Shown: positions 5,786 to 12,156 of the stretch, in pieces
How the letters are laid out: every line of letters starts with the position of its first letter
How positions within the stretch are numbered: the stretch's first letter is position 1
Assembly: GCA_904846145.1 (NCBI GenBank)
Contig: CAJGZL010000001.1
Location: forward strand, 930,001 to 994,000
Direction of reading: 5' to 3'
DNA from: Psychrobacter immobilis
Lineage (GTDB): Bacteria > Pseudomonadota > Gammaproteobacteria > Pseudomonadales > Moraxellaceae
Length of the DNA: 64,000 nucleotides
Made by a program: the position numbers and the translations under genes
The notes under the pieces: generated by a model
Databases searched by the model: none
Told to the model about the DNA's origin: nothing
Seen by the model: only the letters and a program-made list of their open reading frames with translations

Positions 5786-6313
5786 TTAAAACTCTACCAT
5801 CCCTGCTCGCAGCTGATCAATAAGCACTAAAAACTGCTGACGCCATTCACGAATAGTGGCATCATCAGGTAGCCATTGATTTGATAATGTCACTACGTTT
5901 ACAATCAGATCTCGTGGTTCATTCTCTGTATTAGCGACAGGCTGCGTAGCGAGCTCATCAGGCTGCACTGCATATAGGCAGCGCTGATAAGCACGTTCAA
6001 CATTAGCCAAAAATCCTTGCTGCTGCAATTGTTGTAGACGTTGTATTTCTGGTGAGACTTGTGTGCGCACACTCAGTGCTTGTTCAATATCTATTAAAGC
6101 TGGCTGAGCAATAGTTAGGCCATAAAAGTGACCCAATTCTTGTAAAAAAGCTAAATAAGTCCCGTATAAGTGAAAAATAGCCGTCTCACAATGCGCTTGA
6201 TAAAGCTGCTTATCAACACTATCACCTGCGGCTTGACAGGCCAGCCTACAAAAATATAGCTTTTGATTGGTACGATCTGCTTGATATTTAGCAACACGAG
6301 TTTTGCCTGCCAT
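5786..6313 (-). CDS. DUF6586-like protein of unknown function
   Basis: A 175-residue, probably cytoplasmic, mostly helical protein. The N-terminal RTNQKLYFCRLACQAA pattern resembles DUF6586 proteins of Pseudomonas and Moraxellaceae; this is recalled from memory and not searched. No catalytic motif, signal peptide or membrane span is visible. In the original gene order it followed rpoC on the same strand but was insulated by the rpoC terminator, now disrupted by the IS. It may therefore receive read-through from rpoC or the IS. A conserved gene of unknown function is the safest reading. Confidence 0.6.
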   Translation of the reverse strand: MAGKTRVAKYQADRTNQKLYFCRLACQAAGDSVDKQLYQAHCETAIFHLYGTYLAFLQELGHFYGLTIAQPALIDIEQALSVRTQVSPEIQRLQQLQQQGFLANVERAYQRCLYAVQPDELATQPVANTENEPRDLIVNVVTLSNQWLPDDATIREWRQQFLVLIDQLRAGMVEF

Positions 6314-6430: not shown

Positions 6431-6447
6431 AAAAAAGCCAGCTATGT
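6431..6447 (-). terminator. Distal arm of split rpoC terminator plus target-site copy
   Basis: AAAAAAGCCAGCTA (6431-6444) is the exact reverse complement of TAGCTGGCTTTTTT when the latter is assembled across the IS right junction (7873-7890). ATGT at 6444-6447 recurs at 7873-7876 and is the likely target duplication. Removing the IS plus one ATGT restores a near-perfect hairpin with a T tract downstream of rpoC. Confidence 0.8.
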
Positions 6448-6473
6448 GAACTGACCCCCTAAACTTGGACAGT

Positions 6474-7382
6474 TTAAGTTTGAATCAAGGACTGAGTTCT
6501 GTATTGCACAGGACTCAGTCCTTTTAGTTTAAGCTGAATTCTTTCATGATTATAATAATGCATAAATCGGTGAATCTGTTTTTCTAATGCTTCAATAGTT
6601 TTAGGCTTCTCAATGTAGATAGTCTCACACTTTAGCGTCCCAAAGAAGCCTTCCATTAGTGCATTGTCTAAGCAATTCCCTTTTCGGCTCATACTTTGCT
6701 TAATATTATTATCTTTGAGCGTTTTGGCAAACGGTTTCATCTGATAATGCCAGCCTTGATCTGAATGCAGCGTTAGCTCCTCTTTACACTTGCGCTTTGA
6801 TGATATGTTTTTAACCGCGCGCTCAAGCATTTGTTTCACTACATCATATACGGGTCGTCTTGAAACTTGATAACTGATGATCTCATTGTTATAGCAATCG
6901 AGTATCGGTGACAGGTACAGCTTATCCTCGCCTACCTTAAACTCAGTGATATCAGTGAACCATCTGCGATTGGGTGCTTTCGCTCTAAACTTACGCTTGA
7001 CTCTATTCTCAGCTATGACGCCGCATTGTCCTTTATAGGATCGATATTTCTGCCTTCTAATCCTTGCAGTCAATTTAAGCTCACTCATAAGTCTGGCAAT
7101 CAGCTTATGATTGTATTTTAGATCTTCGTTCTTAAGTGCTTGGGTTATGCGCCGATAGCCATATCGGCCTTTGTGGTGATGATAAATATCAGTGATACGC
7201 TGTTTAAGAGTGGCGTACTTATCTTTACTACTAAGACTCGCTCTATGGTAGTAGAAACTACTCCTTGCAAGCTTTGCTATGGTAAGTAGCTCAGATAACG
7301 AGTGCTGATCCCTTAATTCTTCGATGAGCCTTGCTTTGTCGTAGCTTTCTCCCTTTCCCGAAGCAAGGCATCGAGCTTTTTT
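6474..7382 (-). CDS. IS150-group transposase catalytic ORF (orfB, made by -1 frameshift)
   Basis: The frame is open from about 7415 to the stop at 6474. Its productive form is an OrfAB fusion of about 451 residues made by -1 slippage at the heptamer A AAA AAG (A-run 7382-7377, G 7376). The N-terminus contains SFYYHRASL and GRYGYRRIT (HTH_21-like). The rve/DDE integrase core follows with WFTDITEF (first D), LHSDQGWHYQ (second D) and NALMEGFFGTLK (E). The ending NHERIQLKLKGLSPVQYR is typical of IS3-family OrfB. An internal ATG at 7088 would give only 204 residues and lacks the N-terminal part, so it is unlikely to be the real start. Confidence 0.9.
   Translation of the reverse strand, partial: KKARCLASGKGESYDKARLIEELRDQHSLSELLTIAKLARSSFYYHRASLSSKDKYATLKQRITDIYHHHKGRYGYRRITQALKNEDLKYNHKLIARLMSELKLTARIRRQKYRSYKGQCGVIAENRVKRKFRAKAPNRRWFTDITEFKVGEDKLYLSPILDCYNNEIISYQVSRRPVYDVVKQMLERAVKNISSKRKCKEELTLHSDQGWHYQMKPFAKTLKDNNIKQSMSRKGNCLDNALMEGFFGTLKCETIYIEKPKTIEALEKQIHRFMHYYNHERIQLKLKGLSPVQYRTQSLIQT
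6489..6521 (+). terminator. Hairpin at 3' end of orfB, possible antisense terminator
   Basis: GGACTGAGTTCTGT (6489-6502) and ACAGGACTCAGTCC (6508-6521) form a 14-pair stem with one G-T wobble and a 5-base loop. On the plus strand it is followed by CTTTTAG, a weak T tract. It overlaps the last orfB codons. It could stop plus-strand transcription entering the IS from outside. Confidence 0.5.
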
Positions 7383-7828
7383 AAATAAGCATTCTCCGCA
7401 CGCAGATATGCGTTTTCACGTTTGAGCTCTGCTGGGGTCTTTTCATCATCGGGTTTGTCTATGATAGGTGGCTTCATAGCGATACTATCCTTATATTTGG
7501 ATGTGAGTCCAGACATACCGTAGAGCCGATAAGCTTTATACCAGTGGCTAATAAGAGCAGGTGAGCTGATATGAAACTTAAGTGCCGTTTCAGATTGGCT
7601 CAATCCTTCTGCTAACATCACAGTTATTACTTTATTCTTAAAGTCGCTACTGTATTTAGTTTTACGGGTTTTAGGTTTGATGGCGTCTATACCACTATGT
7701 TGATATTGTTCAGTCCATTTACTTACAAACCGTGGATTCACACCAAACTTCTCACCTGTAGCACCTTGGCTATGTCCTTGCTTGTAGTATGCTATGACTT
7801 TGATCTTAAAGTCTAGATCGTAACGCAT
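7313..7828 (-). CDS. IS150-group transposase regulatory/DNA-binding ORF (orfA)
   Basis: A 171-residue OrfA. The frame opens 9 codons earlier at a TTG next to the terminal repeat, but the ATG at 7828 has a GGGGG ribosome-binding-like run 7 bases upstream and gives the family N-terminus MRYDLDFKIKVIAYYKQG. Two helix-turn-helix units (about 1-50 and 57-110) bind the terminal repeats. A C-terminal leucine-zipper-like helix (ELKRENAYLRAENAYLKKL) mediates oligomerisation. The slippery heptamer for producing OrfAB lies within the LKK codons of this zipper. Confidence 0.88.
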   Translation of the reverse strand: MRYDLDFKIKVIAYYKQGHSQGATGEKFGVNPRFVSKWTEQYQHSGIDAIKPKTRKTKYSSDFKNKVITVMLAEGLSQSETALKFHISSPALISHWYKAYRLYGMSGLTSKYKDSIAMKPPIIDKPDDEKTPAELKRENAYLRAENAYLKKLDALLREREKATTKQGSSKN

Positions 7829-7876
7829 AAAATAACCCCCAAAAGTTGTGTCCAACTTATGGGGGTCAGTTCATGT

Positions 7877-7892
7877 AGCTGGCTTTTTTATT
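7877..7892 (-). terminator. Proximal arm of split rpoC terminator
   Basis: AGCTGGCTTTTTTATT lies 28 bases past the rpoC stop (read on minus, AATAAAAAAGCCAGCT). Its partner arm is at 6431-6444, on the far side of the IS. Alone it cannot form the terminator hairpin. Confidence 0.75.
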
Positions 7893-7920: not shown

Positions 7921-10900
7921 TTAATTATCTTGATTAAGCTCTTGAGCAAAGGCTTCATCAAAGCTGGCAAAGTCTTTATTATCACCTGTCGCAGTATTCA
8001 TATCAAACGCAGCACTATCAAAAGAGGCGTTTAAGTCTTTATCTTGCAGTTTTTGATCGGCTTTATCTTTACGAGCTTTATGATAAGCCAAACCTGTACC
8101 TGCTGGGATCAAACGACCGACTACCACGTTTTCTTTCAAACCGCGTAGCTCATCAACCTTACCTGTTACCGCAGCGGCTGTTAGCACGCGTGTGGTTTCT
8201 TGGAAGGAAGCTGCTGAGATAAAGCTTTCAGTAGCCAAACTCGCTTTGGTGATACCTAGCAATTGACGCTCGTATTGTACTGGGAACTTATCTTCCGCCT
8301 CGAGCTTAGCATTAAGCGCTCTGATATCAACATACTCAACCTGATCGCCTTTAAAGTGACTAGAGTCACCAGCATCGGTAATCTCAACTTTACGCAACAT
8401 CTGACGAATGATGACTTCGATATGCTTATCGTTGATTTTCACACCTTGCAGGCGGTAAACATCTTGCACTTCGTTAACGATATAATCAGCAAGCGCCGTT
8501 TGACCTTTTAGACGTAAGATGTCATGCGGGTTTTGTGGACCATCAGCGATCACTTCACCACGTGCTACCGTCTCGTTCTCAAAGACGTTGATTTGACGCC
8601 ATTTTGGGATCAGCTCTTCATGCACTTCACCATCTTCATTAGTGATAATGAAGCGGTTTTTGCCTTTAGTTTCTTTGCCAAAGCTCACCACACCTGTCAT
8701 CTCTGCCATAATGGCATGATCTTTTGGACGGCGTGCTTCGAATAGATCAGCAACTCGTGGCAAACCACCTGTGATATCTTTAGTACCTGAAGACGCTTGT
8801 GGTACACGGCCTAGGATAGAACCTGCTGCTACTTTTTCGCCATCGCTAACCCGAATAATCGTCTCAGCAGGTAAGAAGTAAACGACTTCTTTGCCAGCAT
8901 CAGTATTCAAGATAATAGCGGGACGCAAGTCTTTGGCATTACTTGAACGATCACGAGTCGCTAGAATTTCAAACGAGCTCATACCAGTGGCATCATCAAC
9001 TTTCACCGTCGCTGTCATACCATCAGTGATATCGCTAAAGCGCGCTTTACCAGCAAATTCTGTGATAATAGGATGCGTATGCGGATCCCACTTAGCGATA
9101 GTCTGACCGCCTTCGACTTGATCTTCGTTTTTGACAAGTACGCTTGAACCATAAGGTACTTTATAGCGCTCACGCTCACGACCTAACTCATCAGTTAAAG
9201 CAATTTCAGCTGAACGAGAGACGATAACTAAGTGACCATCAACGTGCTCAACCGTTTTCATATTCTCAAAATGTACTTGACCACCATTACGTACAGAGAT
9301 GCTATTGTCCACAGAAGCTGAGCTTGCTGCCCCGCCTACGTGGAACGTACGCATGGTTAGCTGAGTACCTGGCTCACCGATAGACTGCGCTGCCATGACA
9401 CCAACTGACTCACCGATGTTGACTTTATGACCACGAGCAAGGTCACGGCCATAACACTGGGCACACACACCATGTGCGATATCACAGGTAATCACTGAAC
9501 GAACCCAGATATCATCGATAGCGTTATCATCAAGCACGTCAACCCAATGCTCATCGATTAAAGTACCCGCTGGAATGAGGATTTTATCAGCATCGTCGTT
9601 ATAGGTGACATCACGTGAAGTGACACGACCTAGTACTAAGTCACCAAGCTTTTCAATGATCTCGCCACCCTGAATGTGCGGGGTCATTAGCAAGCCAACT
9701 TCAGTACCACAATCATCACTAGTGATAACCAAATCTTGTGCCACATCGACTAAACGACGAGTCAAGTAGCCTGAGTTAGCTGTTTTCAATGCGGTATCGG
9801 CTAGACCTTTACGCGCACCGTGAGTCGAGATAAAGTACTGAAGTACGGTCAAGCCTTCACGGAAGTTAGCTTTAATAGGCGTCTCAATAATAGAGCCATC
9901 TGGTTTTGCCATCAAACCACGCATACCAGCCAACTGACGAATCTGCGCGGCACTACCACGAGCACCAGAGTCTGACATGATAAAGATTGAGTTGAAAGAT
10001 TTTTGCTCTTCCTCTTCACCTTTTGAGTTCATGACTTTATCAGTGGCTAAGTTATCCATCATCGCTTTGGCGACTTTATCATTGGTACGTGACCAGATAT
10101 CGACCACTTTGTTATAGCGCTCACCAGCAGTCACAAAACCTTGCTCAAACTGATCTTCGATTTCGCGAACTTCTGCTTCTGCGACACCGATGATTTGTTT
10201 TTTACTTGGCGGAATAACCATATCATCTAGGCAAATAGACACCCCTGATAACGTTGCTTGCGCAAAACCTAAGTACATTAATTGGTCAGCGAACATAACG
10301 CTGTCTTTAACACCTAGGTTACGATAGCAAGAGTTGATCAATTTTGAGATGTTTTTCTTAGTCATCTCTTGATTACACTCTTCAAACGCCATACCTTCAG
10401 GCATGATGTTCCAGATAAGCAAACGGCCTGCAACAGTATCTTTTAAAGATACGGTATAAGTCGCATTACCATCAGCATCAAAAACAGTTTCTTTTACGCG
10501 TACTTTAATTTTTGCATTGACATGTAAGTCATTAGAGCCAATAGCGCGCAGAGCCTCGTTAACCGTCGAGAATATCATGCCCTCGCCTTTGACGTTGACT
10601 GATGAGCGGCTGATATAGTAAAGACCCAATACCACATCTTGTGACGGTACAATAATCGGATCACCGTTAGCAGGTGACAAGATATTATTGGTCGACATCA
10701 TAAGGGCACGCGATTCAAGCTGCGCCTCTAGCGTCAATGGCACGTGAACGGCCATTTGGTCACCATCAAAATCGGCGTTAAACGCGGTACAAACCAATGG
10801 ATGCAACTGAATTGCTTTACCTTCGATTAGTACTGGCTCAAATGCCTGTAGACCCAAACGGTGAAGCGTTGGTGCACGGTTAAGCAGTACTGGATGCTCA

Positions 10901-12156
10901 CGGATAACCATGGCCAGCATATCCCACACTTGTGGCTCTTCACGCTCTACCATCTTTTTGGCAGCTTTAATCGTCGTTGCCAAACCATGAGACAATAGCT
11001 TGTTATAAGTAAATGGCTTGAATAGTTCAAGTGCCATTTTCTTTGGTAGACCACACTGATGTAGACGTAGTGTTGGACCTACAACGATAACCGAACGGCC
11101 AGAGTAATCGACACGCTTACCCAATAAGTTCTGACGGAAACGACCTTGCTTACCTTTGATCATATCAGCCAAAGATTTCAATGGACGCTTGTTACTACCA
11201 GTAATGGCACGACCGCGACGACCGTTATCAAGCAACGCATCAACTGATTCTTGCAACATACGTTTTTCGTTACGTACAATGATATCAGGGGCGCTTAATT
11301 CAAGCAGACGCTTTAGACGGTTGTTACGGTTGATCACGCGGCGATACAAGTCGTTTAGATCTGATGTTGCAAAACGACCCCCTTCTAGTGGTACTAGAGG
11401 ACGCAAATCTGGTGGTAGTACTGGTAAGATGTTCATTACCATCCACTCAGGCTTATTATTAGAATCACGGAATGCTTCTAATAGCTTAAGACGCTTAGAC
11501 ATCTTTTTAAGCTTAGTCTCAGAACCTGTTTGCGGAATCACTTCACGCAGCTCATCAATCTCGATGTCAAGATCGATATCTTTGAGCAAGTCTTGAACCG
11601 CTTCTGCACCCATCTTAGCGACAAACTCATCGCCAAACTCTTCAAGGGCACGATAATAATCTTCATCGTCAAGTAGCTGGTATTTCTCTAAAGAAGTTAA
11701 ACCAGGTTCAGTGACGATATAGCTTTCAAAATAAAGCACACGCTCGATATCGCGAAGCGTCATGTCTAGCAATAGACCGATGCGGCTTGGTAATGATTTT
11801 AAGAACCAAATATGCGCAACAGGACTGGCTAGGTCAATATGACCCATGCGGTCACGACGCACTTTTGCAGTAGTAACTTCGACGCCACATTTTTCACAGA
11901 TAACGCCTTGGAATTTACGGCGCTTGTACTTGCCACAGAGGCATTCAAAATCTTTTACAGGGCCAAAAATTTTGGCACAGAATAGACCATCACGCTCAGG
12001 CTTGAAGGTACGATAGTTAATCGTCTCAGGTTTTTTGACTTCACCATGCGACCATGACTTGATCACGTCAGGCGAGGCTAAAGTAATTTGGATACTGTCA
12101 AACTCATGGTTACCATTGCTGGTAGGGCTTTGCATGATATCGAGTAAATCTTTCAA
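7921..12156 (-). CDS. rpoC: DNA-directed RNA polymerase beta' subunit
   Basis: 1411 residues, full length for a gammaproteobacterial beta' subunit. The N-terminal zinc-binding [11 protein letters not shown] ... CEKCG motif, the catalytic [12 protein letters not shown] triad, the trigger-loop region ([10 protein letters not shown]) and the C-terminal [15 protein letters not shown] segment are all present. The last 50 residues are a variable acidic tail. It forms the active centre of RNA polymerase with beta. It is 178 bases downstream of rpoB on the same strand. Its original terminator has been split by an IS, so its mRNA 3' end is probably altered. Confidence 0.99.

Follow-up and report, generated by a model that had tools for sequence, protein, structure and literature searches.

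Insertion of an IS3-family element into the loop of the rpoC terminator of Psychrobacter immobilis, and an apparent preference, shared by its relatives, for terminator hairpins

In the stretch of 64,000 nucleotides of the Psychrobacter immobilis genome analysed here (the window), an insertion sequence lies between the two halves of the hairpin that follows rpoC. The locus bears on an old question, namely where mobile elements land without harm; terminator loops are abundant and fall outside genes, often at points where convergent genes meet. Two more specific questions arise: (i) is this hairpin loop an accidental target, or one of a kind that the element and its relatives favor and (ii) what becomes of termination once the hairpin has been split? 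The features of the locus are collected in Table 1.

Table 1. Features of the locus and of derivatives of the element; all positions except those of the first and last rows refer to the window
Feature	Position	Strand	Remark
Window	G000:C1:930001-994000		64,000 nt
rpoC (RNA polymerase beta' subunit)	7921..12156	-	ORF, named from its own sequence; upstream of the split terminator
rpoC terminator, first half	7876..7889	-	A-tract and 5' stem arm in the sense of rpoC transcription
Target duplication, copy 1	7874..7875		TG, 2 bp; from empty-site comparison
IS3-family insertion sequence	6447..7873	-	1,427 bp; ends TGAACTGACC / GGTCAGTTCA
orfA-end inward terminator-like hairpin	7833..7868	-	Tail TTTTATG; -29 kcal/mol with junction, z -7.9
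orfA	7313..7828	-	HTH, PF13518/PF01527; probable start ATG 7828-7826
AAAAAAG	7376..7382	-	In the orfA/orfB overlap; probable site of -1 frameshifting, by analogy with the IS3 family
orfB	6474..7415	-	DDE integrase core; stop-to-stop frame; PF00665, NF033516
orfB-end palindrome	6487..6523	+	Inward, terminator-like, tail TTAGTTTAA; within the coding end of orfB
Target duplication, copy 2	6445..6446		TG, 2 bp; from empty-site comparison
rpoC terminator, second half	6431..6444	-	3' stem arm and T-tract in the rpoC sense
DUF6586 gene	5786..6313	-	PF20227, E 2.5e-10; next gene downstream
Mini-elements and solo ends	L063-L077 (G005); L178, L180, L184, L187-L190 (seven other genomes)

The flanks are as the original prediction described them: AAAAAAGCCAGCTA on the left and TAGCTGGCTTTTTT on the right, the two terminator halves of Table 1, are exact reverse complements. 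Their pairing exceeds chance, at -27.2 kcal/mol beating all 80 mispaired combinations with the flanks of other elements. The same prediction pointed to a repeated ATGT. These four bases do recur at the two junctions (6444-6447 and 7873-7876), yet in each copy one of them is an end base of the inserted DNA, and they are therefore not the target duplication. What was duplicated is TG (CA on the opposite strand), as read from the empty site AAAAAAGCCAGCTACATAGCTGGCTTTTTT in G027, a genome of the same species in which 501 bases of the 3' part of rpoC are 100% identical. G027 has an intact hairpin after rpoC and no element there, and the window flanks, joined after the loss of one TG, reproduce that hairpin exactly. 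Removal of the element thus rebuilds the terminator as predicted, with a folding energy of -19.1 kcal/mol (z -6.9). A terminator-like hairpin after rpoC is kept, with variants, in all 25 genomes of the genus inspected by eye. We also note that a block like AAATAGTACACT between positions 6313 and 6431 (minus strand) recurs in many of these 25 genomes and is perhaps the DUF6586 gene's own promoter.

The inserted DNA has the two overlapping frames (shared segment 7313-7415) of the IS3 family, with an HTH OrfA and a DDE (rve) OrfB, as well as the TG...CA ends typical of that family; the family's target duplication of 3-5 bp is seen at most of the sites compared below. OrfB matches PF00665 over a 204-residue part (6.7e-25) and the IS3 transposase profile NCBIfam NF033516 (E 7.9e-99). 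Membership of the IS3 family is borne out, and the close relatives are ISEcB1, ISKpn1 and IS150, with OrfB identities to proteins so annotated of 51.9%, 51% and 48.9-49.3%, respectively. As claimed, the element points the same way as rpoC: orfA and orfB, like rpoC and the DUF6586 gene, are read from the minus strand. The genome of the window holds five copies and one remnant: three copies are intact, 100% identical and share the boundaries found here (6447/7873), and two are interrupted, with a different rve-type element inside L005 and ~0.8 kb of inserted DNA inside L004. The remnant (L007, 83% identical, G000:C1:996439-996659) lies ~2.4 kb past the window and has a similar counterpart in G027. 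The empty sites of L002, L003 and L004 in G027 are intact terminators too, making four of the four sites checked among the five copies. That of L004 is identical to the joined flanks, that of L003 differs by one base, and that of L002 has one extra T in the loop and a few differing bases outside the hairpin.

Matches to the element's DNA, some of only tens of bases, occur in 68 of the 105 genomes of the genus (its own included). Three candidates were scored per genome, and more in five genomes, giving 44 loci, of which L028, L030 and L062 were dropped for want of matching ends; the 41 elements with both flanks come from 19 genomes and include the interrupted L004 and L005 and the internally deleted L054, and those that share a genome should not be taken as wholly independent in the counts below. 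Target duplications are 3 bp long in 27 of the 41, 4 bp in eight, 5 bp in one and 2 bp in one (the rpoC site), with none in four. The two flanks of one element pair with a mean duplex energy of -19.7 kcal/mol, compared with -11.0 kcal/mol (sd 0.5; minimum -12.6 in 300 permutations) for mispaired flanks. Since the mispaired control retains the shared A- and T-tracts, the difference in energy lies in the stems.

Each site was also tested against 400 mononucleotide shuffles of its flanks. At p<0.05, the flanks pair as a hairpin in 39 of 41 elements, as opposed to none among 38 control copies, which come from the same genomes and belong to other rve-type (PF00665) elements, and copies that lack dyad symmetry, which would speak against a preference, are confined to L005 and L079. 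The rebuilt hairpin has an A- or T-tract in 38 of 41 cases (0/38 controls), and A- and T-tracts flank both sides of 36 of 41 elements (1/38 controls). The control copies belong to eight groups and were retained from 40 fetched (L287 and L303 were dropped); L269 and L274 have identical flanks, so that the 38 copies represent 37 sites, and control OrfB identity is only 19-31% in the four groups measured. Their own flanks pair no better than mispaired ones (-7.8 and -8.2 kcal/mol). A run of five or more A residues ends 5-27 nt outside 151 of 190 termini, as against 15 of 190 for an equal stretch farther out; with seven matches that do not belong to this insertion sequence set aside, the count is 149 of 183, the commonest distance being 9, 10 or 14 nt. 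By crude ORF calls, 28 of 40 scored sites lie between convergent genes, 12 between tandem genes and none between divergent genes, and no element (0/41) interrupts an ORF, compared with 9 of 30 controls used for this count. At the tandem sites the element is co-directional with the upstream gene seven times and opposed five times. The preference for hairpin loops, which had been put forward as an inference, is strongly supported by these comparisons.

The insertion sequence has also given rise to palindromic mini-elements, 45-46 bp long, and to solo orfA ends, many of them beside A-tracts (Table 1). Among the 46-bp derivatives the flanks are paired in six of 14, and a duplication is absent from 11 of the 14 two-ended ones scored; as further evidence on the target they are weak and were set aside.

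Does the preference extend beyond the genus? For elements of the same bacterial family with 48-54% OrfB identity, 18 of 32 sites reach p<0.05 (eight of 40 loci had been dropped, two of them because they repeated 30 bases already present in the set). In one lineage of this outgroup, 11 of the 32 sites lie in a repeated REP-like sequence, a pattern with 9 to 15 occurrences per genome in three genomes, and three of these 11 pass; outside the REP-like set 15 of 21 pass, including L257 and L259, which lie in a longer palindrome that is not terminator-like. Named distant relatives with 47-55% OrfB identity, from Pseudomonadota and Bacillota, pass at 39 of 59 sites, 35 of the 39 having an A- or T-tract. 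The genera that pass include Burkholderia, Caballeronia, Rhizobium, Cellvibrio, Paenibacillus, Bacillus, Neobacillus and Cytobacillus, and none of five Xanthomonas copies passes. The remaining 20 of the 59 are above p 0.05, some through misplaced ends; L324 was left out of this set, 13 of the other 79 named loci gave no resolved element, and several rows are copies from one genome. Among seven near loci that carry a name, five share the flanks of unnamed loci (L308/L024, L311/L018, L312/L023, L313/L019 and L314/L025) and so add little.

In E. coli, seven records were examined among the 15 matches listed of 215. They represent four distinct sites (downstream of ssrA, ugd and sseA, and in the interval between yfbM and nuoN), all of which look like terminator loops and pass (all seven loci, p 0.002 to 0.045). 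None of the six plasmid loci annotated as IS150 (L408-L412 and L416) is in a terminator by eye; L409 and L411, which represent one site next to hok, do have flanks that pair (p 0.010 and 0.027), and the other four are unpaired. Two copies annotated as ISKpn1 fail the pairing test, L407 at p 0.17, although by eye it looked like a palindromic unit (PU), and L417 at p 0.74. L414 (ISEnfa3) and L415 (unnamed) reach p<0.05, and L413 (ISKpn8) does not. As a separate observation, the IS150-annotated copies stand directly upstream of hok-type genes at five loci (L408, L409, L411, L412 and L416), and the ISKpn8 copy L413 is upstream of a DUF5431 gene, a kind that overlaps hok in L412. Such insertions beside hok have been described for chromosomal hok loci.

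How, then, might elements come to lie within hairpins? That the half-terminators are parts of the element and travel with it is virtually inconceivable, as the flanks vary between sites and complete hairpins stand at the empty sites, which refutes it. If instead insertion occurred anywhere and selection spared only harmless insertions downstream of genes, the lack of sites between divergent genes and within ORFs would be expected. The other rve-type elements, however, live in the same genomes under the same selection and show hairpin sites in 0 of 38 copies. Of 500 intergenic positions drawn at random from the window, 57 reach p<0.05 and eight have both tracts. Nor can selection of this kind place an insertion within the few bases of a loop. 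Survival alone is rejected by the two controls as the cause of the site pattern, and we regard it as very improbable; the transposase itself probably chooses the site. What it recognizes is a closer call. The element may read a double-stranded sequence dyad (an A-tract, a few G/C, a spacer and the mirror image) and not a hairpin structure, a serious possibility that we rank somewhat below recognition of structure. The frequent A runs near the termini agree with such a dyad, as does the statement in the cited portion of PMC1525189 that ascribes the specificity of IS1397 and ISKpn1 to their transposases. On the other side, the stem sequence is not constant among sites, and relatives are found in GC-rich stems or in a REP-like repeat that lacks A-tracts, an argument that is not decisive. 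On balance it is somewhat more likely that the transposase reads structure.

The second question, the fate of termination, leads to the ends of the element. A terminator-like hairpin directed inward is found within the first 100 nt of the orfB end in 30 of 30 distinct elements and within the first 75 nt of the orfA end in 26 of 30. For comparison, such a hairpin is present in 48 of 660 internal 90-nt windows and in three of the 18 ends of nine control elements. One ISEcB1 copy also folds into hairpins at both ends. Covariation at the orfB end was examined in 91 distinct sequences, gathered by protein motif from all loci collected. The palindrome is paired in 93.4% of cells with 154 double changes, whereas protein-preserving resampling of codons gives 85.9% and 84.7 double changes (sd 5.7, maximum 104 in 500), and sliding the partner by 1-3 columns lowers pairing to 17-48%. 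Further pair types number 27, within the range of a plain shuffle (mean 23.4, maximum 28). Of the 91 sequences, 64 combine Leu with Gln and 18 combine Met with His; Met-Gln and Leu-His are absent, and nine sequences have other residues. The orfB-end hairpin thus appears to covary beyond codon choice and to couple L/M with Q/H, and the case is strong, short of formal proof because kinship among the sequences inflates the counts.

Transcription from rpoC enters the element at its orfA end. The original prediction held that read-through from rpoC may drive the transposase, and this finds no support: an entering transcript would meet the orfA-end hairpin of -29 kcal/mol and its U-rich tail just before the orfA start. 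As the element seems to replace the terminator that it splits, such transposase-driving read-through is unlikely. It is a real, though less probable, alternative that the end hairpins do not stop host transcripts and instead hide the orfA ribosome-binding site, mark the ends or stabilize RNA. Indeed, the GGGGG that precedes the orfA start is within the 3' arm of the orfA-end hairpin, four of the 30 distinct elements have no recognized terminator at that end, and a conserved protein motif accounts for part of the orfB-end palindrome. The T-rich tails on the inward side of both hairpins, and covariation in excess of codon choice, argue for termination. The alternative roles and termination are mutually compatible, and we take the end hairpins to be probable terminators of transcription.

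Our model, which we consider very likely as a whole, is that the transposition machinery selects loops of hairpin DNA, in most of the lineages compared here those of intrinsic terminators, and that the inward hairpins at the ends of the element take over termination and shield the transposase. A complex of OrfAB would capture the hairpin or dyad and insert the element between the two stem arms by a normal staggered cut, with the usual 3-4 bp duplication. The T-tailed hairpin at each end would then stop transcripts arriving from either side just inside the element, both restoring the lost termination and protecting the transposase from read-through. If this is so, insertion into terminator loops together with replacement terminators would allow wide transposon spread at low cost. 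The system also provides a straightforward way to ask whether a transposase recognizes the structure or the sequence of its target DNA.

A wider reading, to which we lean only slightly, is that an IS3 clade spanning phyla is specialized on intrinsic terminators and docks in the loop with its own inward terminator pair, by which the split signal is replaced from both sides, the REP-like lineages being offshoots that changed to another hairpin. A quick tree with a weak root places the REP-like lineages among those that use terminators and groups the ISKpn1-annotated OrfB with the E. coli copy L400 (98% SH-aLRT); rows under 250 residues were excluded, as were L268 and L288, for which the extracted control OrfB was the family's own protein. 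If such a clade exists, conservation of its orfB-end terminator would be strong enough to link residue changes in the transposase (L/M with Q/H).

For annotation, copies of the element hide terminators, and unmatched halves can expose rearrangements between copies. In genome G113, the inverted copies L244 (G113:C1:178823-181691) and L265 (G113:C1:194361-197229) have swapped their terminator halves and their 4-bp duplications (ATAT and AGAG). Pairing energies are -15.4 and -8.5 with their own flanks and -12.6 and -18.4 with the flanks swapped. The exchange suggests that the ~16 kb separating the copies has been inverted.

Targeting of palindromes and hairpins is known, and no description of terminator targeting by IS3/IS150-type elements was found in the open-licence literature. 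As far as that literature goes, a clade of the IS3 family devoted to terminator loops, with paired replacement terminators, would apparently be new. Among its nearest relatives, ISEcB1 has a diverged sequence and an E. coli host and is similar in that its copies occupy terminator loops, in the yfbM-nuoN interval and downstream of sseA; the E. coli relatives in the hairpins after ssrA and ugd carry no IS name. IS150 of E. coli, although close in its OrfB, differs in that its six annotated plasmid loci are outside terminators, five of them adjoining hok genes. Examples of its insertion given in the cited portion of PMC11708052 are in dgt and yfcTU. ISKpn1 and IS1397, also of the IS3 family, insert in REP sequences (palindromic units), with the target set by their transposases according to the relevant passages of PMC1525189. 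Unlike these PU/REP targets, the Psychrobacter sites are intrinsic terminators of differing sequence; IS1397 is compared by description alone.

Terminators are targets outside the family as well. Group IIC introns insert at terminators, although these are retroelements whose mechanism and position differ. The closest parallel in target is offered by IS1272 and TnSha1 of Staphylococcus, which, in the parts of PMC4923244 and PMC5678879 that describe them, target stem-loops, several of them transcription terminators, some confirmed. There, part of the hairpin is reported to be deleted and no duplication to be formed. At the four empty sites checked here, by contrast, the hairpin halves are complete, and the element keeps both halves on either side of itself, with a duplication of the target.
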